Assembly: GCF_016902445.1 (NCBI RefSeq)
Contig: NZ_JACSNX010000013.1
Coordinates: forward strand, 1-64,000
Length of the DNA stretch: 64,000 nucleotides
Reading direction: 5' to 3'
Origin: Oscillibacter valericigenes
Lineage (GTDB): Bacteria; Bacillota; Clostridia; Oscillospirales; Oscillospiraceae
The first letter of the stretch is position 1. Each line of letters starts with the position of its first letter. The notes beneath the pieces were generated by a model. That model was given only the letters and a program-made list of their open reading frames with translations. It made no database searches and was not told the origin of the DNA. Shown here one piece after another: positions 9,801 through 45,859 of the stretch. The translations under genes were made by a program, and so were the position numbers.

Positions 9801-9877
9801 GGAGGCTTAGCTCAGCTGGTTAGAGCGCCTGCTTCACACGCAGGAGGTCACTGGTTCGAGTCCAGTAGTCTCCACCA
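9801..9877 (+). tRNA. tRNA-Val (CAC), prophage attachment gene
   Basis: A 77-nt cloverleaf with acceptor GGAGGCT/AGTCTCC, anticodon stem CCTGC/GCAGG, loop TTCACAC and encoded CCA. Its 3' half (from 9847) is the left copy of the prophage attachment core, so the integrated phage restores an intact tRNA gene. Confidence 0.95.
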
Positions 9878-9878
9878 T
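9847..9878 (+). repeat. attL core (32-bp direct repeat with 45828-45859)
   Basis: The 3' half of tRNA-Val, through the CCA end plus one base, is repeated exactly at 45828-45859. The repeat breaks off on both sides. Position in a tRNA 3' end next to a tyrosine integrase is the classical attachment arrangement. Confidence 0.93.
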
Positions 9879-9938: not shown

Positions 9939-9952
9939 GTACACACTTTTAT
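9939..9952 (+). repeat. Candidate integrase arm site, left
   Basis: GTACACACTTTTAT is repeated exactly at 45711-45724, so both copies flank the attachment core in the circular phage. A variant ATACACAC lies at 9927-9934 and another (TATACACAC) at 45722-45730. Tyrosine integrases bind such arm repeats. Confidence 0.5.
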
Positions 9953-11052
9953 TTTTTGGCGAGGATTGACTTGATGGCCTGTCCCGTGTAATCTGCGGCT
10001 TTCTGCAGGTCACCGGCCATGACATGGCCATAAGTACCCTCGGTATCCATGTCCCGGCTGTGGCCAATGACCATTTTCTTCAGGCCCTCCGGCATCTCCT
10101 TGTTGATAGAGACATAGGTATGCCGGAGTTCATACAGGGTGGTCTCCGGAATCCCGTTCGCCCGGCAATACCGCTTCCAGGCTCGGATGAAGTTCTTGTT
10201 CACCAACGGACCGCCGTCTGGGCCGGGAAACAGATAGGGGGAGATCATGCCTGCTTCCTTCAGCATGGCCCGCTGCGCCTTGACCTCTTCCATGCCGATC
10301 TCCGGAAGCTGGAAGGTCCGCTGGGCGTTGTGGTTCTTGCCTTGGGTGATCTCCCTGCGGACATTGATGGAGCGCCGCACAATGACCTTGCTGCCCTTGA
10401 TATCGGACTTGTCCTCCAGGCCGGTCAGCTCCCCGGGGCGGAGGCCCGTGATGACCGCGAACCGATAGGCATGGATATACCAGTCCTGCACCGGCTTGCC
10501 GCGCCAGGTGGTCATATCAGAGCGGAAGAGTGTTATGATGCCGTCCGGTGAGACGATCCGCTTTTCTGGCCGTTTGGCGCCAGCAGGAATCGCCAGCGTC
10601 TCCGGGTACAGTCTGGTTTTGCCATGCTGCCGGCACCACTTCAGCCAGCCCATCATGCAGCCCCGGATATCCCGCAGCGTTTTGGCTGAGAGCTTCCTGC
10701 TGGCGTATGCCCGGTCGATCACGTCCTGCAAGTCTCCTTCGGTCAGGCGGTTAATCCGGATCAAGCCAATTACAGGCCGGATGTACAGCCGGATGAAGCC
10801 GCAATACTGGGAGGCATGGCCGGCTGATTTTGTTCCCTTCAAATACTCTTCATACTGATCCAGCAGTCGGCCAACTTGAACCGTCTCCGCTGAGGTGGGA
10901 TCTTCCAGCCAGCGGTCGGCCTTGCGCTCCGCCTCCAGCTTCCCTTTTCGGCCGGTGAGCGTGCTCGTGAAGGTCTTTCGCTTTCCGTCTCTCTGGACAT
11001 TGACCTGCCAGCGGTGATACCGATCCACCCAGTATGCCTCGCTGATACGCAT
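9949..11052 (-). CDS. int: Tyrosine-type phage integrase (tRNA-proximal)
   Basis: A 367-aa recombinase. The N-terminus has an AP2-like/arm-binding segment (MRISEAYWVDRYHRWQVNVQ), then a SAM-like core-binding domain (about 70-170) and the catalytic domain. Catalytic residues seen are Arg in TGLRPGEL, the LYELRHTY box (Tyr in place of the first His), His in VIGHSRDMD and the nucleophile in TEGTYGHV. The start is placed at MRISEAYW, one base after the stop of the upstream recombinase gene, giving a TAATATG junction. It ends 71 bp from attL, which marks it as the likely integrase. Confidence 0.9.
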   Translation of the reverse strand: MRISEAYWVDRYHRWQVNVQRDGKRKTFTSTLTGRKGKLEAERKADRWLEDPTSAETVQVGRLLDQYEEYLKGTKSAGHASQYCGFIRLYIRPVIGLIRINRLTEGDLQDVIDRAYASRKLSAKTLRDIRGCMMGWLKWCRQHGKTRLYPETLAIPAGAKRPEKRIVSPDGIITLFRSDMTTWRGKPVQDWYIHAYRFAVITGLRPGELTGLEDKSDIKGSKVIVRRSINVRREITQGKNHNAQRTFQLPEIGMEEVKAQRAMLKEAGMISPYLFPGPDGGPLVNKNFIRAWKRYCRANGIPETTLYELRHTYVSINKEMPEGLKKMVIGHSRDMDTEGTYGHVMAGDLQKAADYTGQAIKSILAKK

Positions 11053-11053
11053 A

Positions 11054-12001
11054 TTACCGTCCCCCCTCCTGTCCGTCCATCTTAAAGGGGGCGGCAGCGC
11101 CGGACAAGGGTGCCGCTGTACGAGGCTCCTGGAGGGAAGCAAGATAGATCCTCGTCACATCGTCCCGGCCGTGGCCCAAAAGCTGGGAAACCGCCTTCCT
11201 GGCCTCGTAGGGCGTGGCGCCGGCGGCGATCCGCTCCTGGTACCACTCGGCCGCGCAGGTGTGCCGGAGGCCGTGGAAGGTCATGGGCCGGGCTGACCCA
11301 GTGTCCTGCGCACCGGGACGATGTGTACGAATAAATGATTGCAGCTGCTGGATGGCTGTATGAGTTTGGACGCCATCCGGGACAAAGAGCTTGTGCCCGC
11401 GGGGCGTGGCCTGCAGGGCCAGCTCCAGCCGGCTCACCAGGATAGGATGCAGCGGAACCGTCCGGACAAGGCCGCCCTTGCCCTTGATGGTGATGGCCCC
11501 TTCCCGGATGGCTTGCTCCGCCGTGGCGGTGTCAATCCGGAAGCACTCATGGATGCGCAAGCCCGCATACCGGGCCAGATAGAGGATCGTCACGTAGTCC
11601 TCCCTGCCCAGGCGCAGTGCCTCCGCCAGCATCCGCTGGAACTCCTCCCGGCTCCAGGTGCGGTCCACGCCGCCGAAGGTGCGCCGCTGCAGCAGAAGAT
11701 CTCCATTGTCCGGCAGCTGGTGCCGGGGCGCCGCCATCAGGTCATGGAAGAAGCGGATGGCGGCCAGGTCCGTCTTGATGGTGGAGGGGGACTTGCCGCT
11801 CTCCTGAAGGAAGGCCACATACGCCACGAGGTGCTTCGGTCCGATATTGGCCAGGCGCTCCAGATGATACCGTTCTGCCAGGAAGCGGCAGAACCGCTGC
11901 ATGGCCTCATAGTAGCGGGCGCGGGTGCGGTAGCTGCCCGCCCGGTTATGCCGGTACAGGCGGTTCAGCTGGTTGATCAGGTTCAGATAATACTTCGACA
12001 T
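11054..12001 (-). CDS. Second tyrosine recombinase (XerC/D-like)
   Basis: A 315-aa protein with an N-terminal SAM-like domain (ARYYEAMQRFCRFLAERYH near residue 30) and a catalytic domain carrying YAGLRIHECFRID, the GLRHTCAAEW box, LLGHGRDDVTRIYLAS with the Tyr nucleophile. It lies directly upstream of, and is translationally coupled to, the tRNA-proximal integrase. AAAGGACGG precedes the ATG. Two coupled recombinases are unusual for a phage integration module. The second may act in excision or as a heteromeric partner (inference). Confidence 0.85.
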   Translation of the reverse strand: MSKYYLNLINQLNRLYRHNRAGSYRTRARYYEAMQRFCRFLAERYHLERLANIGPKHLVAYVAFLQESGKSPSTIKTDLAAIRFFHDLMAAPRHQLPDNGDLLLQRRTFGGVDRTWSREEFQRMLAEALRLGREDYVTILYLARYAGLRIHECFRIDTATAEQAIREGAITIKGKGGLVRTVPLHPILVSRLELALQATPRGHKLFVPDGVQTHTAIQQLQSFIRTHRPGAQDTGSARPMTFHGLRHTCAAEWYQERIAAGATPYEARKAVSQLLGHGRDDVTRIYLASLQEPRTAAPLSGAAAPFKMDGQEGGR

Positions 12002-13324: not shown

Positions 13325-13431
13325 AGGGAAACATATCATTTAACAGAGCTGGAACGTTCCGCAATCGGGGCAGGGTGTAAAATGCCGCAAGGCACACCTG
13401 GGAGGAAAGGTTCCAGCTCTGTTATTTTTTT
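13325..13431 (+). ncRNA. Candidate structured RNA convergent with the DUF3800 gene
   Basis: A perfect 14-bp outer stem (13342-13355 with 13410-13423) closes a 54-nt interior and is followed by seven T residues. The interior contains a small CCG-CAAT-CGG hairpin (13359-13368) and a longer bulged hairpin capped by a GCAA tetraloop (TGCC-GCAA-GGCA at 13383-13394 over a lower CAGG(G)TG/CACCTG stem). A promoter lies just upstream. The foot of the outer stem overlaps the stop codon of the DUF3800 gene on the other strand. Structured RNA motifs near DUF3800 genes have been described by comparative genomics ('DUF3800 motif' RNAs); membership of this one is untested. The simplest alternative is an unusually elaborate terminator, but no plus-strand gene needs one here. 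Confidence 0.6.
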
Positions 13432-14276
13432 CTCTCGCAAGTCATGTATACGTGCCTGTAAACCATCTTAACCGGCTCCATTGTAAGATACTCCCGCAAC
13501 TCGCTTTCTGTGTGGATTGGAAACAGGGGAAGAATGTATTTCAGGCTTTTTGATGCAAGAACACTTAAGGCCCTGCGTTTTCCATTTTTGCAGAGTGGCT
13601 GTATCCTTTTATGAGCCAGAGCAGCCTTAACACAAAGAGGGCAGAGAGTTTTAAAATAGAGCATATCTTCGAGAGTTTCATATTGTTCAAAATGTTCTCT
13701 TATTGCACCGCACAGAAGATCTGCAATTTGAATCAACAGAAAATTTGCATCTTTTGAGTCACGAAAGACAATCTGCTCGGTATAGTGCCTTTTTCTCTGG
13801 CTTTTTATGTGGTCAAAGACATCTGCTAATGGGACTTCTTCTGTGTTCTTCATTCGGTCGATTGCAATTAGAATCTTTGAGTCTTCTTCCAGGCAATATT
13901 TATCCAGAGACCGAAGGGCCATCAAATGACAGAGAATCGAAAGATGTTTATTCCCTTGATACTTCGCCTGGTCAACTTCCTTTTTGAACACAATCTGACA
14001 GGACAACTGTCCTTTTGCATCTCTCAGCAGTCCGAGGGCCTCAGCCCCTCTGCGGTGCCGCCTGATCCTTGAATATTTCACTTCGTCTTTTTCATTGCAA
14101 CCGACAATCGCCTTAATCTGCTTCAGAATTTCAAGATTGTGGGCGATATCTTCTTTCTTCACCAAAAAGGCAGCGGCGGCATAGCAAATCGTCGCTCCCC
14201 GCTCAAAGGCAAAGCCATCATCTCCAGAGGCGTCTACATACATTACGTAATCAAATTGATTAGGATCAACTTTCAC
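13422..14276 (-). CDS. DUF3800 protein (RNase H-like fold), probable defence/moron gene
   Basis: A 284-aa protein with the DUF3800 pattern: YVDASGDDGF near residue 14, an IAIDRMKN segment near residue 167 and LLIQIADLLCGAI near residue 205, giving three acidic residues placed as in RNase H-like nucleases. A CPLC motif near residue 235 hints at metal binding. It starts with GTG, 14 bp after the repressor's stop, and is thus in the lysogenic operon. Its base composition is clearly AT-richer than its neighbours, a sign of recent transfer. DUF3800 members occur in abortive-infection and toxin-like settings, so superinfection defence is likely, though the molecular target is unknown. Confidence 0.8.
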   Translation of the reverse strand: MKVDPNQFDYVMYVDASGDDGFAFERGATICYAAAAFLVKKEDIAHNLEILKQIKAIVGCNEKDEVKYSRIRRHRRGAEALGLLRDAKGQLSCQIVFKKEVDQAKYQGNKHLSILCHLMALRSLDKYCLEEDSKILIAIDRMKNTEEVPLADVFDHIKSQRKRHYTEQIVFRDSKDANFLLIQIADLLCGAIREHFEQYETLEDMLYFKTLCPLCVKAALAHKRIQPLCKNGKRRALSVLASKSLKYILPLFPIHTESELREYLTMEPVKMVYRHVYMTCERKK

Positions 14277-14290
14277 AATAAGCCACCCGC

Positions 14291-14650
14291 TTATTTATTT
14301 CCTTTTGTGTCCGAATCGGACACATTTTTTTTACTCTCTTCTGCCACCAAGTACTCCAGGAAGGTCATGATCTTGTCCTGGCTCTCCGGGGATAGGCCGT
14401 TGAACCGCATCACCAGGTAACGTTGCGGCGGGCCTCCCAGGCCGGGATCGGCCTCACCAAGCAATTCACTGACGGTTGTTCCGAGATAACTTGCCAATCG
14501 CTCGAATTTGTCAATAGATGGCTGTCGGCCGCGCTTAACATCCGGTAAAAAACTAGTACCAACGCCACTCTCTTTACAAGCAGCTGTCGGGCTTACGCCT
14601 TTTAACGTCGCAAAGTGTTTTACATTTTGCACAAATATTTCAACATTCAT
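14291..14650 (-). CDS. XRE-family phage repressor (CI-like)
   Basis: A 119-aa protein with an N-terminal HTH (FATLKGVSPTAACKESGVG ... FERLASYLGTTVSELLGE) and a short C-terminal oligomerisation segment. It is transcribed leftward, away from the rightward early promoter, with repeated operator-like sequences between, which is the immunity arrangement of temperate phages. The C-terminal residues VSDSDT are encoded by the reverse strand of the 17-bp prophage palindrome. Start chosen at MNVEIFVQN. No peptidase domain is seen, so RecA-driven self-cleavage is unlikely. Confidence 0.85.
   Translation of the reverse strand: MNVEIFVQNVKHFATLKGVSPTAACKESGVGTSFLPDVKRGRQPSIDKFERLASYLGTTVSELLGEADPGLGGPPQRYLVMRFNGLSPESQDKIMTFLEYLVAEESKKNVSDSDTKGNK
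14307..14323 (+). repeat. 17-bp prophage palindrome, copy 1
   Basis: GTGTCCGAATCGGACAC, inside the 3' end of the repressor gene. Identical to five other copies. Confidence 0.95.
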
Positions 14651-14691
14651 GGGCGACCACACCTATTCTGAATTTGGGCAGTTTATGCAAA

Positions 14692-15136: not shown

Positions 15137-15673
15137 ATGCCGGAGGACTACAGCAATATCTATAAAATCGCTCGTCGAGCGGCTGGTTTTACCCAAGAAT
15201 CAGCCGCCGAGCAACTGGAAATCTCTGTTGACAGTGTGCGGGCATATGAGACTTCCCAGCGTCTGCCGCCCAGTGAGATTGTAGAGCGGATGGTCGTCTG
15301 CTTTCACGCTCCCCAACTCGCCTACCAACATTTGCACGAGACGAACGCCCTCATATCACGGGTGATCCCACAGTTGGAGCAGCGAAGCATCCTGGAGGTT
15401 GCCATCCGGATCTACAACCGGATGCGGTATTTTTCCCAAAATGCCTGCTTGGAGCGCCTGTTGACTATTGCGGAAGATGGGCGGATCGATGACACTGAAC
15501 GGCCGGAGTTCGATGAGATCATCGAGGAGCTGCGGAGCATCATCCAGTCTGGCCTGGAGCTGGAAATCTTCTGCTCGCCTGATCCAGCCACGAAAAAAGA
15601 CCGCCCCACGGGTGGAGCCGTGAGACGGTCTGGGTTCCGGGCTTGCGCCGAGAACGATTGCAAATTTATTTAG
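15137..15673 (+). CDS. XRE-family regulator with repeat-derived C-terminus
   Basis: A 178-aa protein. Residues 5-60 form an HTH (IARRAAGFTQESAAEQLEIS, SVRAYETSQRLPPSEIVERM), followed by a helical region. The last 26 or so residues (starting KKDRPTGGAVRRSGF) are encoded by a 77-bp structured repeat that recurs at 15941-16017, so the original C-terminus was probably replaced by insertion of that element. AAAGGAGG precedes the ATG. Role: early regulatory protein, target unknown. Confidence 0.7.
   Translation: MPEDYSNIYKIARRAAGFTQESAAEQLEISVDSVRAYETSQRLPPSEIVERMVVCFHAPQLAYQHLHETNALISRVIPQLEQRSILEVAIRIYNRMRYFSQNACLERLLTIAEDGRIDDTERPEFDEIIEELRSIIQSGLELEIFCSPDPATKKDRPTGGAVRRSGFRACAENDCKFI
15594..15670. 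repeat. 77-bp structured repeat, copy A
   Basis: Nearly identical to 15941-16017. It contains a compound stem (GACCG ... CGGTC enclosing CACGG ... CCGTG, 15599-15630), preceded by six A residues, so on the minus strand it resembles a T-tailed terminator. It supplies the end of the 15137 coding region. Confidence 0.8.
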
Positions 15674-15928: not shown

Positions 15929-15940
15929 GGCAGTGTACAA

Positions 15941-16017
15941 AAGAAGACCGCCCCGCGGGTGGAGCCGCGAGACGGTCGGGGTTCTGGGCTTGCGCCGAGA
16001 ACGATTGCAAATCTATT
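15941..16017. repeat. 77-bp structured repeat, copy B
   Basis: Second copy of the 15594-15670 element. In its inner stem an A-T pair of copy A has become G-C (CGCGG/CCGCG at 15946-15977), a compensatory change that keeps pairing. Confidence 0.8.
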
Positions 16018-16414: not shown

Positions 16415-16427
16415 GAGGAGGACAGCT

Positions 16428-17168
16428 ATGCGGAGGCATCCCAAGAAGGGTGGACAGTTCGCCATCATTTGGGTGGATCTGCTGTATGAGGACGCGGTAC
16501 CGGCCACCGGGAAACTGCTCTTCGGCGAGATATACCGGCTCTCCGGGCCGGACGGCTGGTGCGATGCCAGCAATCAAGACTTCATGGATCTTCTGGGGTG
16601 CAGCGAGACGACTGTCCGCAATCTGCTCAAGGCCCTGGAGGACGTGGGGCAGATCCGGGTGGTCACCCGGCCCCGCCGGGAAGGCTCCGGCGGCACGGAG
16701 CGGTGGATCTTCTGCGGTCGGAAACTGGCCCCTCCGGAGGCCCAGGAGGTACCCGCAAAAAATTGCGGGTACCCCGGGGAGGGTACCCGCAGAAATTTGA
16801 GGGGGGTACCCGCAGAAACTTGCGGGTCCACATCTATAAGTAATTATAATAATACCCCCTATAGTCCCCCAAAGGGGGATGACCCTGACCTTTCGAGGTC
16901 ATTTGACCTGTTTTGGGACAAGTACCCCAAGAAGGTCAAAAAGAAAAAGGCGCGGGAGCTCTGGCAGAAACTGCGGCCAGATGCCGGCCTGGTGTCCGTG
17001 ATCCTGGACGCCTTGGAGAAGCAGAAACGCAGTGACCGCTGGCAGCGGGATGGAGGCCAGTACATACCGGACCCCACCACCTGGCTCAACGGCCGCCGGT
17101 GGGAGGACGAACTGCCGCCAGGGCCTGATTCCCGGCCGCCCAGAAGGGAGGCATATGGATGGGAGTGA
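16428..17168 (+). CDS. Phage replication initiator-like protein containing the origin
   Basis: A 246-aa protein. Residues 1-100 form a winged-helix/HTH_36-type domain (ASNQDFMDLLGCSETTVRNLLKAL region). Residues 110-150 are a low-complexity linker encoded by iteron repeats. The C-terminal part (FDLFWDKYPKKVKKKKARELW ... PDPTTWLNGRRWEDE) is the conserved tail of phage O/DnaD-type primosome proteins. Iterons inside the initiator gene followed by an AT-rich stretch match the lambda O arrangement. It overlaps the DnaB-type helicase gene, which it probably loads. Confidence 0.82.
   Translation: MRRHPKKGGQFAIIWVDLLYEDAVPATGKLLFGEIYRLSGPDGWCDASNQDFMDLLGCSETTVRNLLKALEDVGQIRVVTRPRREGSGGTERWIFCGRKLAPPEAQEVPAKNCGYPGEGTRRNLRGVPAETCGSTSISNYNNTPYSPPKGDDPDLSRSFDLFWDKYPKKVKKKKARELWQKLRPDAGLVSVILDALEKQKRSDRWQRDGGQYIPDPTTWLNGRRWEDELPPGPDSRPPRREAYGWE
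16748..16858. other. Probable phage replication origin (iterons plus AT-rich region)
   Basis: Three related iterons start at 16748, 16782 and 16805. The first and third are near-perfect palindromes with arms GGTACCCGCA and TGCGGGTACC; the second keeps only the left arm. A strongly AT-rich 29-bp segment (16830-16858) follows, suitable for unwinding. They lie inside the initiator gene. Confidence 0.75.
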
Positions 17169-18559
17169 ACAGGGACAATGCAGCACGTCGAGAGCATGCA
17201 TTGGATGCGGAGCAAGCGGTGCTGGGTTCGTTCCTGATCGACACCGGCATCCAACAGCAGCTGTTTGCGCGGGTGCGGCCGGAGGATTTTTTGAGCCCGG
17301 CCAATCGGAAGATCTACACCACGGCTCGGGCGCTGTTCAGGGCCGGGGAGCCGGTGGACGGCGTCACGGTCCGGGATAAACTGGGCCAGGATTATACGCG
17401 CCCGCTGATGGAGCTGATGGAGATCACCCCCACCAGCGCCAATTGGGAGGTCTACGCCGCCAAGATGCGGGACCAGGCGGATCACCAGCGGCTGCGGGAC
17501 CTTGCAGAGCATGTGCTGGAGCAGCCGAATCTGGAGAGCTGCCGCCCTTATGTGGCGGACATGAGCCAAGTCCTGTCCGCAGGACCGGAGGCAGACAGCT
17601 GGACCATGCGGCAGATGGCAGACGATTTTTTCAACAGCCAGGACCCGAACGTGCCGAAGCCGAAGTACATCACCTATGGCCTGGACGTACTGGACAATGG
17701 CAGCTACACGGAGCTGGGAGATGTGGTCATCATCGGCGGGTACCCGTCGGACGGCAAAACAGCCCTGGCGTTGTCCTTGGCCTATCACATGGCGGCAGAA
17801 TACAAGGTCGGTTTTTTTAGCCTGGAGACGGACAAGCGCAAGATCCGGGACCGGCTGATGGCCCATATCGGGCAGATATCCTTGGGGGACATCAAGCGGC
17901 GCCGCCTGACGGACCCAGACTGGGTGGCTCTGGCGGCCAAGGGCACCGAGATGGCCAAGCGGGATCTGATTGTGGTCCAGGCCGCCGGTATGACGGCCCC
18001 GGAGATCCAGAGTGTGGCGCAGGCCTATGGCTTCCAGGTCATCCTGATCGACTACATCCAGCTGGTGACACCGGAGACAGACCGGCGGGCGCCCCGCAGT
18101 GAGCAGGTGGCGGAGGTGTCTCGGAGCTTTCATACATTCGCCCAGCGGACAGGTACCCTGGTGGTGGAGCTGGCACAACTCACCCGGCCAGAAAAAGGGG
18201 CATGGCGGCCGCCCACCATGCAGGACCTGAAGGAGAGCGGGCAGCTGGAGCAGGATGCGGATATGATCGTGCTGCTCTACCGGCCTGACCCAGAGGACAA
18301 AACACTGGACCAGAACGAAACCCGGAGCCTTAAAATCGGAAAGAACAAGGAGGGACGCCGGGGCACCTGGCTCCTGGCCTTTGACGGAGACCGGCAGACA
18401 TTTGAACTTTTGGGTGCTGACGGCAAACCCCGCCGGCGTCCCAGCGACCGGAAACGTCGGAAGCGGGACGAGGGGCCGGTTGGGCAGGTGGACTTCTGGG
18501 CCGATGGCGGAGAATTCAGGGACACGCCGTGGGGCCAGGAGGAGGCGAATGCAAAATGA
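17159..18559 (+). CDS. dnaB: Replicative DNA helicase (DnaB-like)
   Basis: A 466-aa hexameric helicase. The N-terminal domain (DAEQAVLGSFLID near residue 16) is followed by the RecA-like domain with Walker A GGYPSDGKTALALSLA, FFSLETDK, Walker B VILIDYIQLV and the QLTRPEKG ... LKESGQLEQDADMIVLLYR motif of DnaB. It overlaps the initiator gene by 10 bp and the next gene by an ATGA junction. It would unwind phage DNA at the origin upstream. Confidence 0.92.
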   Translation: MGVNRDNAARREHALDAEQAVLGSFLIDTGIQQQLFARVRPEDFLSPANRKIYTTARALFRAGEPVDGVTVRDKLGQDYTRPLMELMEITPTSANWEVYAAKMRDQADHQRLRDLAEHVLEQPNLESCRPYVADMSQVLSAGPEADSWTMRQMADDFFNSQDPNVPKPKYITYGLDVLDNGSYTELGDVVIIGGYPSDGKTALALSLAYHMAAEYKVGFFSLETDKRKIRDRLMAHIGQISLGDIKRRRLTDPDWVALAAKGTEMAKRDLIVVQAAGMTAPEIQSVAQAYGFQVILIDYIQLVTPETDRRAPRSEQVAEVSRSFHTFAQRTGTLVVELAQLTRPEKGAWRPPTMQDLKESGQLEQDADMIVLLYRPDPEDKTLDQNETRSLKIGKNKEGRRGTWLLAFDGDRQTFELLGADGKPRRRPSDRKRRKRDEGPVGQVDFWADGGEFRDTPWGQEEANAK

Positions 18560-18798: not shown

Positions 18799-19599
18799 GT
18801 GAGGACGATTGCAATCATGAACAACAAGGGCGGCGTCGGCAAGACCGTCACCGCCATCAACCTAGCGGATATCCTGGTGCGGGACTACCGCCAGCGGGTG
18901 ATCCTGGTGGACTGCGACGGGCAGATGAACCTGACCAGGTTTTTTGTCCCGGACTTTGACCCGGATGCGGAGTACACCATGGTGTCCCTGCTGGAGGGGG
19001 ACGGGGAGGCGCTGTGGAGCGACAACCTGCTGCAGGTGAGCAAGGATCTGTGGCTGATTCCCGGTAGCCCGGAGCTGTACACGGAGGATCTGGAGGCCGT
19101 CATGGAGGGCCAGGATCAGGTCAAGACCCGCCGGGTAGCGAACTTCGTGGACTGCGCCCGGAAAGACGACGGGGCGGACTTCATCATCTTCGACTGCCCG
19201 CCGGGCTTCACGGCGGCCAGCCTGGCGGCTCTGCTGGCCAGCGACGAGGTGGTCATCCCCATGGAGCTGGATGGATTTTCGGTCACCGGCATGGTGACCA
19301 TGCGGCAGCAGCTGGCGCTGCTGAAGCGCAGCGGCCTGCGGGTTCCCAGGGCCTTCGTGCTGATCAACCGATGGCGGGCCACGGAGTTTGTCAGCGAAGT
19401 GGAGACTCAGCTGCGGGAGATGTCCGAGCACGTCAAGATCCCCGTCTATCAGCAGGTGATCCGCAAGAGCGAAAAGGTGCCGGAGAGCACGGTGACCGGG
19501 TCCCCGCTGTCTGTGTACAGCCCCCGGAGCGCCGCCGGCGTGGACTTCCGGCGCTGGGTCCGGGAGCTGTGGGGAGGTATGGGCCATGAGCAAGTTTGA
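18799..19599 (+). CDS. parA: ParA/Soj-family partition ATPase
   Basis: A 266-aa ATPase with the deviant Walker A MNNKGGVGKTVTAINLA at the N-terminus, LVDCDGQMNLTRFF and FIIFDCPPGFTAASLAAL (Walker B). It has no N-terminal HTH, so it belongs to the short ParA class. GTG start immediately after the previous stop. With ParB downstream it would segregate DNA carrying parS-like sites, a function expected of a plasmid-state phage. Confidence 0.9.
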   Translation: MRTIAIMNNKGGVGKTVTAINLADILVRDYRQRVILVDCDGQMNLTRFFVPDFDPDAEYTMVSLLEGDGEALWSDNLLQVSKDLWLIPGSPELYTEDLEAVMEGQDQVKTRRVANFVDCARKDDGADFIIFDCPPGFTAASLAALLASDEVVIPMELDGFSVTGMVTMRQQLALLKRSGLRVPRAFVLINRWRATEFVSEVETQLREMSEHVKIPVYQQVIRKSEKVPESTVTGSPLSVYSPRSAAGVDFRRWVRELWGGMGHEQV

Positions 19600-21001
19600 C
19601 CTGAGCCGGATCGTGGGGGCCGCCGATGTGTCCGAATCGGACACGGAGCTGCGGGAGATCTTCCTGGACAAGATCCGGGAGAACCCGGAGAACTTCTACC
19701 CGCCCCTGCCGGAGGACGAGGCGGAGGCCCTGCGGGAGTCCATCCAGGCCAACGGTCTGCTGGAGCCCCTGCTGGTGGTGCCGGACGGCGCTATATACCG
19801 CCTGGTGTCCGGCCACAACCGGCTCCGGGCTCTGCGGGACCTCCGGGCCAACGCCTTTGGCATGGACTACAAGACGGCCCTGTGCCGGGTGCTGCAGCCC
19901 ATGGACGCGGACCACGAGATCACCGCTATCATCGAGGCCAACCGGCAGCGGAGAAAGACTCCGGCGGTGCTGCAGCAGGAGGCGGAGGCTCTCACGGAGG
20001 TCTACGTCCGGCGGAAGCAGGCCGGAGAAGATCTCCCAGGCCGTATCCGGGATCGGGTGGCGGAGGCCATGCAGGTGAGCGCCACGAAACTGGCCAACCT
20101 CAACGCCATCAAAAACGGCATCCGGGAGCCTGTATTTGCATCGGCATGGGCAAGCGGGAACATTTCAGAGGCCTGCGCCCTGGAAATTGCTCGGATGGAT
20201 GCAGAAAGCCAGCACCAGCTGGCAGTCTGGCTGGAAGATGAGCGGGAGCCGTGTGCGCTGAGCCTGGTGCGGGAGTTTAACGCAATCTCCCACAAACTGG
20301 ACCATGACTGCAAGCTGGCCGGGATGCCTTGCCCCAATGCGCGGGCCATGTATAAGGCGTTTGTACGGCATGGCACCTGGGAAGGTTGTTGCGGTTGCTG
20401 CTCCTGTTGCCTACGGCGGGATACCTGCTCCATCTGCTGCCAGTATGTGGAGCGGAAGGCCCAGGCGCCGGTGGACGAGCCGACGCCGGAGCCCGCGCCG
20501 CCCATCAGTGAGCCTAAGCCCGGCATCGACTGGCAGCGGGAGCGTGAGGCGTTCGGAGCCCGCCTGCGGAAGGCTCGGGAGGAAACCGGCCTGGACCGGG
20601 CGGCATTTGCGGAAAGGATCGGAGCCTACAAGGCTACATACTCCGCCTGGGAAAATGGCTCTCTGCCCGGAAGTAGCCAGTTCCCAGACCTGGCCCGGGC
20701 GCTGGGGGTCAGCACGGACTATCTGTACGGCCTGACGGACGATCCCACACCGCCAGGCGAACGGGCGCCCCAGCCAGAGGGTCAGTTGACCATTGCCGGG
20801 TGGATGCCGGGCAGCTGCAGCCCGTCAGAGCCGGGGGAGTTTGCAGTGCTGGTAGACCTGGGGGCTGATGGATATTATCGGGCGTTCATGGCCTGGGATG
20901 GTGCCGATTGGGAGATGCTGCCGTCCCGTCAAAAGCCGGAGCTGCCCATCGGCTGGTGGCTCCGTTTACCACCGGAGCCGGAGAAAGGAGAAACAGTATG
21001 A
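19586..21001 (+). CDS. parB: ParB-like protein fused to a Cys cluster, XRE domain and C-terminal domain
   Basis: A 471-aa multidomain protein. Residues 24-130 are a ParB/Srx domain (ALRESIQANGLLEPLLVV, LVSGHNRLRALRDL), 150-200 a ParB-type HTH (VAEAMQVSATKLANLNAIK), 268-286 a cluster of nine cysteines (CCGCCSCCLRRDTCSICC), 321-383 an XRE HTH (RLRKAREETGLDRAAFAERI ... LARALGVSTDYLYGL) and 400-465 a DUF551-like tail. The added XRE domain and Cys cluster are not part of ordinary ParB. Codons 15-20 are formed by one of the six 17-bp palindromes. It overlaps parA by 14 bp. Confidence 0.85.
   Translation: MSKFDLSRIVGAADVSESDTELREIFLDKIRENPENFYPPLPEDEAEALRESIQANGLLEPLLVVPDGAIYRLVSGHNRLRALRDLRANAFGMDYKTALCRVLQPMDADHEITAIIEANRQRRKTPAVLQQEAEALTEVYVRRKQAGEDLPGRIRDRVAEAMQVSATKLANLNAIKNGIREPVFASAWASGNISEACALEIARMDAESQHQLAVWLEDEREPCALSLVREFNAISHKLDHDCKLAGMPCPNARAMYKAFVRHGTWEGCCGCCSCCLRRDTCSICCQYVERKAQAPVDEPTPEPAPPISEPKPGIDWQREREAFGARLRKAREETGLDRAAFAERIGAYKATYSAWENGSLPGSSQFPDLARALGVSTDYLYGLTDDPTPPGERAPQPEGQLTIAGWMPGSCSPSEPGEFAVLVDLGADGYYRAFMAWDGADWEMLPSRQKPELPIGWWLRLPPEPEKGETV
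19628..19644 (+). repeat. 17-bp prophage palindrome, copy 2 (inside parB)
   Basis: GTGTCCGAATCGGACAC at codons 15-20 of parB, immediately downstream of parA. The proximity to parAB fits a centromere-like site. Confidence 0.95.
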
Positions 21002-22168: not shown

Positions 22169-22666
22169 ATGACAACCATGGATTTTAGTACCACGCTGAA
22201 CGCTCTCCGGAAACTGCGCGTTGAGACTGGAAGTCTTGCCTGCCTAGGATGCGGGTACGAGCACAACTGCTCCACACATGGGTGTGCCATCCTGCGTAAT
22301 GCCATAGAGCACATGGAGGCGGCTCTTTCGAACTATGATAGCCTCTCTGCTCTGGTGGACCATCTGGAGACGGAGCTGAAAAGTGAGATCCTATCAGCGG
22401 CCGAACTCCGGGCCAGGCTGGCGAACGAGTGGGTGAGCGTGGAGGAGAGGTTGCCAACGGACGAGCGTCCGGTTTTGGTATTCGTCGGTTATGCAGACAC
22501 CATGACGGGATTTATTACCACTTCGTCCTATTTTTGCTTTGACGTAAATCCGCATTGGCAGTGGGATGGATTGGTCCGGGATGAGCAGCGGACTCTTTTC
22601 TGGATGTCCCTTCCCGCACCGCCTGACCGCCGCCCGCCGGAGGGGGAGGAGGACCATCATGACTGA
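22169..22666 (+). CDS. DUF551 domain protein
   Basis: 165 aa. The N-terminal half has CLGCGYEHNCSTHGC (possible metal site) and a coiled-coil-like helix. The C-terminal half has the DUF551 pattern: WVSVEERLPTDERPVLVFVG ... FWMSLPAPP. Such proteins are frequent in phage early regions and have no assigned function. Confidence 0.75.
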   Translation: MTTMDFSTTLNALRKLRVETGSLACLGCGYEHNCSTHGCAILRNAIEHMEAALSNYDSLSALVDHLETELKSEILSAAELRARLANEWVSVEERLPTDERPVLVFVGYADTMTGFITTSSYFCFDVNPHWQWDGLVRDEQRTLFWMSLPAPPDRRPPEGEEDHHD

Positions 22667-23079: not shown

Positions 23080-23332
23080 TAATGACCTCGCCACCATCCA
23101 GACTGCCCTGGACTCCCGGCTGGAGATCGAGATGACCCGGTCCCTCGGGGATCTCCGCATCAAAGTCTCCACGTCCAGGGCTCCGCCTGTTTGGCGTCCC
23201 TGGATTATGCTGGCCAGAGTGGAGATCTGGACCGGCCATACTTACAGCACCCAGTGGTGTGTGTCATGTGAGGAGGTACGGATGGCGTGCAAGAGTGGAT
23301 CTGCGTCCGCCAGCGGGCAGGGCCGCTGGTGA
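23063..23332 (+). CDS. Small hypothetical protein
   Basis: 89 aa from a GTG (GGAGG 9 nt upstream). MMLLSDNDLATIQTALDSRL is helical, then beta-rich. No family recognised. Confidence 0.5.
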   Translation: MMLLSDNDLATIQTALDSRLEIEMTRSLGDLRIKVSTSRAPPVWRPWIMLARVEIWTGHTYSTQWCVSCEEVRMACKSGSASASGQGRW

Positions 23333-24021
23333 AGGAGTGCCGGGCGCTGCGGCCGCGGCTCCTGCGGACAGACAGTCCCGAGGATCGGCGGGACAAAAAC
23401 GAGATCGTCCGGTCAAAGCATACAGCGGTTTGCAGGACCCAGGTGGATCGCCTGGAACTGCGACTGGCGACTTTTGGCTTCCATGGAAGCCACTACACGC
23501 TGACCTGTGACGACTTCCACTTGCCGGACAGATATGACGGGATGCGAAAAATGTTCCGGGCGGCCAGGTCGCGGATGCAGCGATGGCACGGTGGGACCTT
23601 TGACTGGATCGGCTGCATTGAGGGCAAGCACGGGGATCATCGGCTCCACGTGCACCTGGTGCTGCGGGATGAGGACTTCTCCCCGGCAGAGGTTCGGCAC
23701 CTGTGGACGGCCGGCGACGTGGATGACGAGCCGGTCCTGTTGCGGGAGGGCGGATACCGGCGGCTGGCCAAGTACTTCAACAAGGAGCGGCCGGACGGGT
23801 TCGTGATCCCGCTGGGCAAGCACCCGTGGAGCTGCAGCCGGGGGCTGAAGGCCCGGATCCCTGAGCCGGAGCGGTGGCGGGATGACAGCGGGCTGATCGA
23901 GGTTCCGGACAACGTGATCTGGTGCCGGAAGGGATCCCACGAGAATGACTTCGGAGCCTACTACTATGCGAGCTATATCCTGCCGGATGGGCCGCAGTTT
24001 GGCGGCCGGTTTTTTGTTTAG
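23287..24021 (+). CDS. HUH endonuclease-like rolling-circle Rep-type protein
   Basis: 244 aa from GTG with GAGGAGG 10 nt upstream. The HUH motif is seen in CIEGKHGDHRLHVHLVL near residue 105, and a Tyr-containing helix YRRLAKYFNKERP near residue 155 matches the third Rep motif. An aromatic YYYASYIL segment is near the C-terminus. Such Rep-like proteins occur in clostridial prophages alongside DnaB systems. Possible roles are nicking at an origin or mobilisation; none can be assigned from the sequence. Confidence 0.65.
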   Translation: MQEWICVRQRAGPLVKECRALRPRLLRTDSPEDRRDKNEIVRSKHTAVCRTQVDRLELRLATFGFHGSHYTLTCDDFHLPDRYDGMRKMFRAARSRMQRWHGGTFDWIGCIEGKHGDHRLHVHLVLRDEDFSPAEVRHLWTAGDVDDEPVLLREGGYRRLAKYFNKERPDGFVIPLGKHPWSCSRGLKARIPEPERWRDDSGLIEVPDNVIWCRKGSHENDFGAYYYASYILPDGPQFGGRFFV

Positions 24022-24358: not shown

Positions 24359-24739
24359 ATGGCACAAAAGCCGCTGCGCCCATGCCGGCATCCTGGGTGT
24401 ACGGCCCTGGTCCCCGACGGCTACTGCGACCGCCACCGGCCAAAGGATAACCGCAGCAACGAAGCCAAGTCCTGGCACTGGATGTACCTGACACCAGAGT
24501 GGACGGAAGACCTGCGGCCCGGCCAGCTCCTTCGTGAGCCGTTTTGCCGGGAGTGTGCTCGGCACGGAGACCGGACACCGGCCACGGAAGTGGATCACAT
24601 CCAACCGCACCGTGGAGACTGGGCAGTGTTCATGGATCGTGGCAATCTTCAGAGCCTTTGCCATTCCTGCCACAGTCGCAAGACGATGGCTGAAATGCGG
24701 CAAAAGCGAGATGCTTTGTGTGCCCGCTGGCGGCGATGA
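24359..24739 (+). CDS. HNH endonuclease next to terminase
   Basis: 126 aa. The HNH core is EVDHIQPHRGDW ... NLQSLCHSCHSRKT, with two CxxC-type pairs forming the zinc site. HNH proteins directly upstream of TerS/TerL assist DNA packaging and cos cleavage in many HK97-like phages, and this one is in that position. Confidence 0.9.
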   Translation: MAQKPLRPCRHPGCTALVPDGYCDRHRPKDNRSNEAKSWHWMYLTPEWTEDLRPGQLLREPFCRECARHGDRTPATEVDHIQPHRGDWAVFMDRGNLQSLCHSCHSRKTMAEMRQKRDALCARWRR

Positions 24740-24900: not shown

Positions 24901-24917
24901 GTGTCCGAATCGGACAC
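24901..24917 (+). repeat. 17-bp prophage palindrome, copy 3
   Basis: GTGTCCGAATCGGACAC in the gap between the HNH gene and the terminase genes. Confidence 0.95.
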
Positions 24918-24941: not shown

Positions 24942-25217
24942 ATGGTTCGGCTGGAATGCGGCCTGCGGGGTGCCCGCAAGTATTGCACCTCATACCCAGG
25001 CTGGTGCTGCAGGGAGTGCCCGCTGTGGGCATCCTGCGACCGAGCCTGCTGGAATTCCCCGGAGTCTTGCGGTTACTCCGCGCCCCACGACACTTGTCAG
25101 TATCACGCACCAACCAAGATTGTCTTGAAGGAGGGACCTATCCATGGCGGGCAGACGGCAGCCCACGGCTCTTTTGGAGGCCAACGGGCGAAAACATCTG
25201 ACGGAGGCGGAGGCTGA
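24942..25217 (+). CDS. Possible Cys-rich small protein overlapping terS
   Basis: 91 aa with GAGGGAG before the ATG. The first 55 residues hold ten cysteines, including CCRECPLWASCDRACWNSPE, a pattern seen in small phage zinc proteins. The 74-bp overlap with terS and the Gly-rich end argue against, so the call is tentative. Confidence 0.4.
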   Translation: MVRLECGLRGARKYCTSYPGWCCRECPLWASCDRACWNSPESCGYSAPHDTCQYHAPTKIVLKEGPIHGGQTAAHGSFGGQRAKTSDGGGG

Positions 25218-25662
25218 CGCCCGGCGGGATCAGGAGGTCTATGTGGCGTCCCCGGAGGCGGCAGTCCCTCCCCGCTGGCTACCGAAGAAACTGCACAAGG
25301 AGTTCCGGGAGATCGGGGAGATCCTGCTGGCGGCGGGCCTGTACTCCGAGCTGGATCGGGACGTGCTGGGGCAGTACTTCCTGGCCCGGGAGCGGTGGCT
25401 CCGGGCGGACAAGCTGGCATCCCAAGCCATCCGGGACAAGGACGAGACCTTGGCCCAGAAGTGGGCCAGCACCCAGAATACCTACTTTCGTCAGGCCCGC
25501 CAGTGTGCGGAGTCCATGGGGCTCTCCGTTACGGCCCGGTGCCGGATCGTGGTACCCCAGGCCCTTCAGAACGCCGGGAGGGCCGGCCCGGAGGACGGTG
25601 CCGATGAGTTCACGCGGAAGCTCCGGGCCCGGCAGGCGGCGGCGCTGGAAGCGGCGGAATGA
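25144..25662 (+). CDS. terS: Terminase small subunit (P27 family)
   Basis: 172 aa. The pattern PPRWLPKKLHKEFREIGEIL followed by DRDVLGQYFLARERWLRADK matches P27-type small terminases. AAGGAGGGACC precedes the ATG. It overlaps terL by an ATGA junction and would recognise phage DNA for packaging. Confidence 0.88.
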   Translation: MAGRRQPTALLEANGRKHLTEAEADARRDQEVYVASPEAAVPPRWLPKKLHKEFREIGEILLAAGLYSELDRDVLGQYFLARERWLRADKLASQAIRDKDETLAQKWASTQNTYFRQARQCAESMGLSVTARCRIVVPQALQNAGRAGPEDGADEFTRKLRARQAAALEAAE

Positions 25663-27466: not shown

Positions 27467-27483
27467 GTGTCCGAATCGGACAC
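27467..27483 (+). repeat. 17-bp prophage palindrome, copy 4
   Basis: GTGTCCGAATCGGACAC, starting three bases after the terL stop and just before the ribosome site of the next small gene. Confidence 0.95.
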
Positions 27484-30947: not shown

Positions 30948-31265
30948 ATGGCCTTGGATGAGACCGTCAAGGCCAGGTTGATGGCCTACTGCCGGATCGA
31001 CGCCCTGGAAGAGGGGGAAGACACCCTCCTGGAGGGATTGTATCAAGCAGCTGTCAACTACATGGCCGATGCCGGCATCGGGGAGCCCCAGGAGGGGACT
31101 CCCCGCCGGGCCCAGTATGACCTATGCGTCAACCACTTGGTCCTGGACGGCTATGACCGGCGGGGTGCCACGGTCAGCGGGTCAGCCTTGGAGGACAATC
31201 CCGTCTTCCGGCGGATGATCGTGCAGCTGAAACTGACGGAGCCGGTGTCCGAATCGGACACATAA
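30948..31265 (+). CDS. Head-tail connector (gp6-like)
   Basis: 105 aa. LMAYCRIDALEEGEDTLLEG, YQAAVNYMADAGI and VNHLVLDGYDRRGA match the small gp6/YqbG-type connector. Its last seven residues, PVSESDT, come from the 17-bp palindrome, which thus overlaps the stop region. Confidence 0.85.
   Translation: MALDETVKARLMAYCRIDALEEGEDTLLEGLYQAAVNYMADAGIGEPQEGTPRRAQYDLCVNHLVLDGYDRRGATVSGSALEDNPVFRRMIVQLKLTEPVSESDT
31245..31261 (+). repeat. 17-bp prophage palindrome, copy 5
   Basis: GTGTCCGAATCGGACAC at the 3' end of the connector gene; the stop codon follows at once. Confidence 0.95.
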
Positions 31266-44613: not shown

Positions 44614-44844
44614 ATGGAACTGCTGAAAAAGCGGCTGGCGAACCTGCTGGCTGTTAAGAGCATCGTGACGATTGTACTCACCTGCGTCTTTGCCTATCTG
44701 ACCTGTACCGGCGGTGTGACCGCCGAACAGTTCCTGACGGTGTTCACCGTGGTGATCGCCTTCTACTTCGGCACTCAGGCGGAGAAGCGGCAGCAGGCCG
44801 CTGTGTCCGAATCGGACACGCAGCAGACGGATCAGGCGGCGTGA
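44614..44844 (+). CDS. Phage holin
   Basis: 76 aa. Two hydrophobic helices (IVTIVLTCVFAYLTCTGGV and FLTVFTVVIAFYFGT) fit the phage_holin_1/phiLC3-like type. It sits directly before the amidase. Its C-terminal VSESDT is encoded by the 17-bp palindrome. Confidence 0.88.
   Translation: MELLKKRLANLLAVKSIVTIVLTCVFAYLTCTGGVTAEQFLTVFTVVIAFYFGTQAEKRQQAAVSESDTQQTDQAA
44803..44819 (+). repeat. 17-bp prophage palindrome, copy 6
   Basis: GTGTCCGAATCGGACAC near the 3' end of the holin gene. Confidence 0.95.
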
Positions 44845-44845
44845 C

Positions 44846-45700
44846 ATGAGGTATATCGTAACAGCCCAGAGCGGCCTCAACATCCGGACGGGGCCGGGCA
44901 CGAACTACGACAAGACCGGCGGGTACTCCTACGGCGCTGTGGTGGCCGTGGAGGCCACCCGGAATGGCTGGGGACAGACAGATCGGGGCTGGGTGTCCAT
45001 GGACTACCTGCGGCCTGTGGAGGCCGCCGACGAGGGCCTGGTGACCGACACGGGGCTGCGGATCATCCAGGACATCCTGCCCTCCGGCGCCAAAAACCGG
45101 CCGGGCGGCAGCAATCCGGACACCTATATCACCATCCATGAGACCGGCAACTTTGCCAAAGGCGCCGACGCTGCGGCCCACGCGGCATATCTGCGGGGCA
45201 GCTCCGCCCAGGCGGCTCCGGTGAGCTGGCACTACACGGTGGACGACCACAGCATCTACCAGCACCTGCCGGATGACGAGCGGGCCTACCACGCCGGGGA
45301 CGGCGGCAGCGGCCCGGGCAACGCCTCTTCCATTGGCATCGAGATCTGCGTGGACGCCGGCGGGAATTTTGAGCAGGCTAAGGCCAACGCGGCGGCGCTG
45401 GTGCGGCTGCTGATGGCCAGGCACGGCATCCAGCTGGACCACGTGGTCCAGCACAACCGCTGGACCGGCAAGGACTGCCCCAAGACGATCCGGGCCACAG
45501 CGGGCGCCTGGGAGGCCTTCCTGGCCCTCTGCGGCGGTCAGGGGTCCCAGGGCTCGGACCCGGAGCTGGAGGCCGCTGTGGACGCGCTGGCGGGCGCAGA
45601 GATCATCAATAGCCCGGCGCGATGGAAGGCACTGGACTACACGGCTAACACGGTGCGGCTGCTGCTGATCAAGATGGGGAAGTATGTCCAAGGCGATTGA
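44846..45700 (+). CDS. Endolysin: SH3-domain N-acetylmuramoyl-L-alanine amidase
   Basis: 284 aa. Residues 1-58 are a bacterial SH3 domain (LNIRTGPGTNYDKTGGYSYG), then an amidase_2 domain with zinc ligands in YITIHETGNF, SWHYTVDD and VQHNRWTGKDCP. The C-terminal 50 residues form a helical tail. It degrades the peptidoglycan stem link at lysis, released by the holin. Confidence 0.93.
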   Translation: MRYIVTAQSGLNIRTGPGTNYDKTGGYSYGAVVAVEATRNGWGQTDRGWVSMDYLRPVEAADEGLVTDTGLRIIQDILPSGAKNRPGGSNPDTYITIHETGNFAKGADAAAHAAYLRGSSAQAAPVSWHYTVDDHSIYQHLPDDERAYHAGDGGSGPGNASSIGIEICVDAGGNFEQAKANAAALVRLLMARHGIQLDHVVQHNRWTGKDCPKTIRATAGAWEAFLALCGGQGSQGSDPELEAAVDALAGAEIINSPARWKALDYTANTVRLLLIKMGKYVQGD

Positions 45701-45827: not shown

Positions 45828-45859
45828 GTCACTGGTTCGAGTCCAGTAGTCTCCACCAT
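45828..45859 (+). repeat. attR core
   Basis: Exact 32-bp copy of the tRNA-Val 3' half at 9847-9878. It is not a functional tRNA. Confidence 0.93.

Follow-up and report, generated by a model that had tools for sequence, protein, structure and literature searches.

A prophage-borne ParB-like protein with cysteine, XRE and DUF551-like regions and its candidate parS palindrome in Oscillibacter valericigenes

We analysed a stretch of 64,000 nucleotides from Oscillibacter valericigenes (assembly GCF_016902445.1, contig NZ_JACSNX010000013.1, positions 1 to 64,000 of the forward strand; hereafter the window, whose numbering applies to coordinates given without a locus label), which holds a 36-kb prophage. 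Sequence comparison indicates that a long ParB-like protein of this prophage very probably binds the centromere in a parABS system carried by the prophage, with the palindrome GTGTCCGAATCGGACAC/GTGTCCRANTYGGACAC as candidate parS. Partition is its best-supported role because a ParA Walker open reading frame (ORF) directly precedes parB in 66 of 74 relatives, namely those of 80 IMG/VR loci for which at least 900 bp of upstream DNA was available. A preliminary description of this DNA had already proposed a ParB acting in partition, and this part was well supported by the ParB fold, the ParA partner and the candidate parS. The partner gene, the protein and its predicted regions are as follows:

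18799..19599, + strand: ParA ATPase, parB partner gene
19586..21001, + strand: ParB-Cys-XRE-DUF551-like protein, 471 amino acids (aa)
19643..20293, + strand: ParB core, residues 20-236, CTPase-type fold and DNA-binding helices (AlphaFold2 model, structure matches)
20309..20440, + strand: conserved eight-Cys region, residues 242-285 (C242, C249, C268, C271, C272, C275, C281, C285)
20537..20740, + strand: XRE-type helix-turn-helix (HTH), residues 318-385 (HTH_19 7.2e-12; XRE structure matches)
20795..20989, + strand: C-terminal DUF551-like domain, residues 404-468

The palindrome was first spotted through the peptide VSESDT/VSDSDT, which is encoded in unrelated frames on both strands; the preliminary description mentions neither the palindrome nor the prophage around it, nor the eight-Cys pattern. 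GTGTCCGAATCGGACAC is a perfect palindrome of 17 bp (8+1+8) with six exact copies, all inside the prophage and all with A as the centre base on the + strand. No exact copy was found elsewhere in the 2.84-Mb draft genome, where the nearest sequence has one mismatch; besides the six sites, there were four genome matches with up to two mismatches among the matches listed. With up to three mismatches, the window contained 14 strand-counted matches versus 0.13 expected. When palindromes with arms of 6 bp and gaps of no more than 9 were surveyed, this was the only class with at least three copies in the prophage, and none was found outside the prophage in the window. The six copies are located as follows:

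14307..14323: candidate parS 1, at the 3' end of the XRE-like gene 14291-14662 (-)
19628..19644: candidate parS 2, in frame, parB codons 15-20
24901..24917: candidate parS 3, between ORF 24359-24739 and ORF 25144-25662 (by position, HNH and terS)
27467..27483: candidate parS 4, directly follows the terL stop (27464)
31245..31261: candidate parS 5, 3' end of ORF 30948-31265
44803..44819: candidate parS 6, shortly precedes the amidase gene (44846-45700)

The copy within parB is shared by many relatives. Among 92 distinct family sequences (query included), which are mutually related and not independent draws, 45 have the peptide VSxxDT before the ParB box, encoded mostly by GTGTCCRANTYGGACAC. In these 45 cases the DNA site is in a single frame, 21-29 codons upstream of the box. 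Its codons are locked (Val GTG in 45/45, Ser TCC in 43/45, Asp GAC in 45/45), whereas the third base of the Thr codon, just outside the palindrome, varies (ACA 20, ACC 15, ACG 10). Because this base serves as an internal control, selection at the 5' site of parB is, on the evidence of codon choice, acting on the DNA rather than on the peptide. A further VSxxDT-like peptide was seen in the linker or C-terminal end of parB in L193, L210, L221, L207, L208 and L189, with an exact DNA site at this peptide in L193, L210 and L221.

The site and the ParB core also occur together in wider searches. A DNA search of IMG/VR with the palindrome found at least 120 loci, not all from different contigs, versus 3 for a control palindrome. 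Among 120 loci listed, 34 encode this ParB core, and of these 34 the site was inside the open frame in 16, and either inside it or no more than 200 bp away in 24; none of the 3 control loci encodes such a core. One to 8 sites are present in 21 of 22 viral records that were chosen for their ParB. This proportion is biased since 19 of the 22 were known to have the site when picked (the unselected figure is 34 of 80 loci). Among 300 genomes of the family, 38 had 118 sites, compared with 4 for the reversed control. Eighteen genomes, the query genome among them, gave a strong ParB match; 15 of these had sites, versus 23 of the 282 others (Fisher p 1.3e-12), and in each of these 15 genomes a site was on a parB-carrying contig. 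Flavonifractor phage Cormatin has four exact sites and gut phage record MT835558 has three, and this was the sole palindrome class recurring there. A palindrome search without a preset sequence in the surroundings of L166 returned GTCCGA-N-TCGGAC four times, with one copy in parB. No site was found in the neighbourhood of the Acetoanaerobium ParB.

Several observations weigh against this reading. VSxxDT was absent before the box in 47 of the 92 family sequences, and GTGTC-N7-GACAC was absent from 44 of the 92 ORFs (one in 42, two in 6). Likewise, 46 of the 80 IMG/VR loci fetched by protein had no exact consensus site in the stretch covered. Most of these 46 loci carry close variants, however, which count in favour of the reading: there were 30 matches in 18 loci with up to one mismatch, 70 matches in 32 loci with up to two (reversed pattern 0), and 103 matches with up to three versus 15 for the reversed pattern. 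Just before the ParB box, a site with up to three mismatches was found in 29 of 45 exact-site-less loci versus 0 of 45 for the control, and this was often GTGCCCRANTYGGGCAC; variant forms of the palindrome are GTGTCCAA...TTGGACAC and GTGCCCGA...TCGGGCAC. From the side of the site, 86 of the 120 listed loci had no ParB in the stretch covered. Among these were 26 records longer than 20 kb, excluding ones that share a contig with a known ParB locus, and 9 of them matched the core at E 0.001 (8 strong, 1 weak). At least two sites were found in 6 of the 8 long records with a strong ParB core versus 4 of the 18 others; many single-site viral records may reflect chance. In the family genomes, 3 of the 18 with ParB had no exact site, and 23 of the 300 had the site without a strong ParB-core match (best matches 38.7 to 61.1 bits). 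The G128 prophage has two sites and the gene order initiator-DnaB-ParA, followed by a DUF3102 protein, not ParB. In G202, G066 and G182, sites were located beside small integrase-like or XRE-like genes (by eye) and Rep (identified by Pfam for G202 and G182). Thus, other proteins may share the site, or ParB-less elements may depend on a partner system. Besides, the consensus ParA-binding motif (L/F/I)G(K/R)G(L/F/I), as defined in the available portion of PMC12704722, was absent from all 92 distinct sequences, so that contact with ParA must differ. Finally, the prophage is integrated, and partition is not needed there; a role on the free circle, or regulation of the whole prophage, would reconcile parABS with an integrase.

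Additional arrangements were seen around these sites. The DUF3102 protein of G128 is encoded at L271:4660-5634 (-). In G295, the site lies within a more distant parB-like gene beside parA (L270:1792-2940, +), with the palindrome in the middle of the gene and not at its 5' end. In G053 and G004, the site follows a terL-like gene (by eye), like the copy at 27467 in the query prophage. Groups of integrase-like, XRE-like and Rep (REP_ORF2-G2P) genes with two or three palindromes were found in L258, L259 and L263, with no ParA in the stretches covered; these are possibly satellites.

The protein itself is encoded by an ORF (19586-21001, +) with no internal stop and a 14-base overlap with the end of the ParA gene. 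ParB_N (residues 21-86) scored 25.3 bits in the protein scan, just below the Pfam cut-off of 26.3, and 28.7 bits, over the cut-off, in the genome search; it was recognised (E 0.01) in 62 rows of a 65-row alignment. This alignment includes the query protein, its rows were not selected for Cys, and Cys counts are given over non-gap rows. Structure prediction, which had been suggested as a check, gave a ParB/Noc/KorB fold for the core and a matched XRE domain. The AlphaFold2 model (65 sequences) had a mean predicted local distance difference test (pLDDT) of 86.6 and a predicted template modelling score of 0.57, and given the latter value the model is more reliable for individual domains than for the way in which they are arranged. 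Residues 20-236 matched ParB, Noc and KorB structures with Z from 11 to 15.8, for example KorB 8qa9_B with Z 14.1 and a root-mean-square deviation (rmsd) of 3.7 over 200 residues. Residues 17-250 matched 8qa9_B and ParB chains that contain a central HTH DNA-binding region. G76, H77 and R79 are at least 90% conserved, and the GxxR motif, which we take to be the nucleotide-pocket motif of the ParB superfamily, is present. The best Foldseek match in a viral structure library was A0A8S5UT85, with 34% identity over 472 columns and a TM-score of 0.53-0.55. No Pfam match at E 1 was found for a canonical C-terminal dimerisation domain, and other domains occupy this region.

The second DNA-binding domain claimed in the preliminary description is real in the query protein and is not general across the family. 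HTH_19 covers residues 324-382 and is over the Pfam cut-off, and XRE chains matched residues 318-385 with Z of about 9-11 (7t8i_A, Z 10.7, rmsd 1.3 over 64 residues). Because Pfam recognised an HTH (E 0.01) in only 8 of the 65 rows, the XRE domain is, as far as the family sequences indicate, degenerate or replaced in other members, where this region may not bind DNA. A DYLLGxTD-like string that ends the XRE region is retained in many rows. The proposed likeness of the tail to DUF551 held only as a remote one, by profile comparison. The tail alone matched no Pfam family at E 0.1, and its BLASTP comparison with the window's DUF551 protein was not significant (E 0.17). DUF551 was matched by 1 of 32 tails (6.4e-12). 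With this tail left out, the tail profile matched the DUF551 profile with a probability of 93.8% (E 1.8e-7), whereas two controls with the Cys-region profile gave probabilities of 0.04 and 0.05. In L164, L165, L166, L188, L231 and L234, another module, by eye, replaces the Cys-XRE part before the tail, a pattern that would represent modular C-terminal swapping.

The Cys region bears on two alternative explanations. One is that a fusion, frameshift or assembly artefact joined parB to an XRE gene, as the preliminary description had considered. Two other draft genomes do break near the Cys region: L005 and L007 are contig ends with residues 246-278 in common, and the alignment with L006 stops at residue 232. 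Against an artefact, L004 from an independent metagenome-assembled genome is colinear over residues 4-471 (66% identity), the IMG/VR relatives L159-L163 have the same layout at 45-48% identity, and phage Cormatin encodes a 516-aa protein (WAK79880.1, annotated as hypothetical) with the same region order by eye. These relatives already refute an artefact, which we consider to have next to no chance of being correct, and comparison of their sequences indicates that the long ParB is a real, widely shared type. In L006 (L006:5920-7062), the parB relative is 90% identical up to residue 232 and continues with unrelated sequence, so the joint at the start of the Cys region is either a recombination joint or an assembly chimera. 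The other explanation takes the Cys region for a sensor of metal or redox state which switches ParB or XRE activity. The nine-Cys cluster reported earlier is present (residues 268-285), and only six of its Cys are family positions: C268 (56/57), C271 (60/61), C272 (60/61), C275 (61/61), C281 (45/59) and C285 (58/59). The remaining three are private (C269 3/26, C274 3/61, C284 4/59). Two further conserved Cys upstream of the cluster, C242 (59/63) and C249 (60/63), had escaped the earlier description. The eight conserved Cys, with their CC pair, would suit a sensor, and redox cues might be usable by anaerobic gut hosts. However, their number and spacing would also fit structural Cys4 zinc, the extra cysteines of the query copy are not conserved, and no fold match supports a sensor, an absence from which we conclude nothing: in comparisons with a small number of chains, the Cys region alone gave no PDB match, whether at E 0.001 or at Z 2, with a model of only moderate confidence (pLDDT 75.5). 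Since six family Cys of an eight-Cys pattern are accompanied by three private ones, the sequences suggest two Cys4 zinc sites that are structural rather than redox-sensing. Metal or redox sensing thus found no support beyond the cysteines themselves, three of the nine being private, and we regard a sensor as quite improbable. A separate alignment of the Cys domain was built from 54 of 58 rows with at least 6 Cys, and its conservation is therefore biased; unselected counts are those of the 65-row alignment given above. In a tree of 114 ParB cores, the Cys label was clustered and yet needed 9 changes, a count that was set aside because the Cys regular expression assigns wrong labels to L004, L159 and L160, in which another residue stands in place of the first Cys, and to L005, L006 and L177, which are truncated.

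It is also conceivable, although unlikely, that the palindrome is a phage repressor operator, bound by the protein's own XRE domain or by a separate XRE protein, and that the ParB-like protein is chiefly a transcriptional regulator of the KorB or Noc kind with the ParA linkage as a relic. The XRE domain of the query protein, the integrated state of the prophage with its integrase, the position of sites near gene ends and starts, and the small XRE- or integrase-looking genes (by eye) that adjoin some sites in other genomes would all be consistent with an operator. However, a Pfam-recognised HTH is rare in the family (the 8 of 65 rows above), ParA is kept in most loci, and several sites are at 3' ends or between late genes. 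Besides, the records of L164 and L231, whose ParBs have no Cys and XRE regions by eye, contain two exact sites each. In a set of short ParBs (308-360 aa, no XRE by eye; L108, L083, L059, L130, L145 and L076), the site is at or just before the gene start; as these proteins were retrieved via the site, only its position in them is evidence, a limit that counts among the points against the parABS reading. From these records, the site therefore seems to follow the ParB core and not the Cys, XRE or tail modules.

With the palindrome read as candidate parS, the setting of the system is an integrating phage. The prophage (9847-45859) is bounded by a perfect 32-bp direct repeat that corresponds to the 3' end of tRNA-Val (9801-9877), and it also has terminase, portal and amidase genes. 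Outside the prophage, the window contains a TctA transporter gene and a gene for a solute-binding protein. Further features are:

9847..9878: attL core, 32-bp repeat at the 3' end of tRNA-Val
45828..45859: attR core, identical 32-bp repeat
9949..11142, - strand: tyrosine integrase (PF00589, 8.9e-9)
16422..17168, + strand: phage replication initiation protein (phrog_270, 1.7e-45)
17159..18559, + strand: DnaB-like replicative helicase
22169..22666, + strand: stand-alone DUF551 protein (32.7 bits, cut-off 22)

Within the initiator gene, three near-repeats GGTACCCGCAGAAA...TTG with inverted arms (16744-16823) are perhaps phage origin iterons. An 81-nt pair (15590-15670 and 15937-16017) is 91% identical and 347 bp apart. 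A gene for a replication protein of the REP_ORF2-G2P type, the family seen in the small site-bearing elements, is located at 23287-24021, and the gene at 13422-14276 (-) gave a weak PADLOC match (9.9e-5) to the candidate defence model PDC-M04A.

Dimers of ParB, Noc and KorB, once loaded at parS, use cytidine triphosphate (CTP) to slide along the DNA. By analogy, dimers of the ParB core described here would recognise GTGTCCRANTYGGACAC as parS and load there, and the loaded protein might then, depending on CTP, spread from the site or slide into the DNA on either side. Six sites along the 36-kb prophage could let the protein cover the whole prophage. ParA would move the complex as long as the phage DNA remains a free circle, between infection and integration or once it has been excised. 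Feedback on parAB could come from the copy inside parB. Most probably, the Cys region binds two structural zinc ions. Together with the XRE domain and DUF551-like tail, it appears to stand where an ordinary ParB has its dimerisation domain. The XRE domain probably supplies a second DNA or repressor contact, and would do so within this clade alone.

This protein and its site resemble known systems in part. Chromosomal ParB/Spo0J, Noc and KorB share the ParB N-terminal fold, the central DNA-binding helices and a palindromic site, as well as a ParA partner in the case of ParB. Unlike them, the present protein has the Cys region, XRE domain and DUF551-like tail and no Pfam-recognised canonical dimerisation domain, and unlike canonical ParB it has no consensus ParA-binding motif. 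The site also differs from the chromosomal parS consensus TGTTTCACGTGAAACA, which was used for a parS search in a Hi-C study of F. plautii (PMC10197239, available text). According to the accessible part of PMC7157519, parABS replaces the integrase in cluster A mycobacteriophages, and in RedRock an 8-bp motif is directly repeated eight times at each of two parS loci. Like these phages, our prophage encodes its own parA and parB and has centromere sites; unlike them, it has an integrase with att sites, and its site consists of one 17-bp palindrome. Integrase genes were found in 11 of 18 relative records searched. On this reading, the palindrome would be the parS of a family of phage parABS systems that coexist with an integrase, unlike those of mycobacteriophages. 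Fusions of the ParB fold with extra domains, common in prophages, were surveyed in 2025; in the portion of this survey available (PMC12704722), the DUF3850 fusion was the sole one consistently beside parA, DUF551 was unmentioned in the main text, and no parS for phage fusions was found there. The closest relatives in architecture are A0A8S5UT85 (Siphoviridae sp. ct4fm14), through the Foldseek match described above, and WAK79880.1 of Cormatin, through its domain order and four sites; their annotations go no further than chromosome partitioning protein or hypothetical protein. The PMC full-text literature searched did not contain the motif strings.

A broader proposal, which we put forward tentatively and with rather low confidence, is that a large family of integrating gut phages has its own centromere code, in which a ParB with a zinc/XRE/DUF551-like module in place of its former dimerisation domain coats the entire integrated prophage from several parS sites, one of them lying in frame within parB. 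If this is true, one protein would silence or organise the integrated prophage and also partition the free phage circle, and ParB-less elements with the palindrome would use that system or another binder of the site. The present analysis provides a testable protein-site pair for a common, uncharacterised type of phage ParB, and would turn genes for hypothetical proteins of gut phages into parABS systems. The site is usable as a metagenome marker for such phages and, if confirmed, would offer a new ParB/parS labelling pair. These findings also raise the question of why an integrating phage keeps a partition system.

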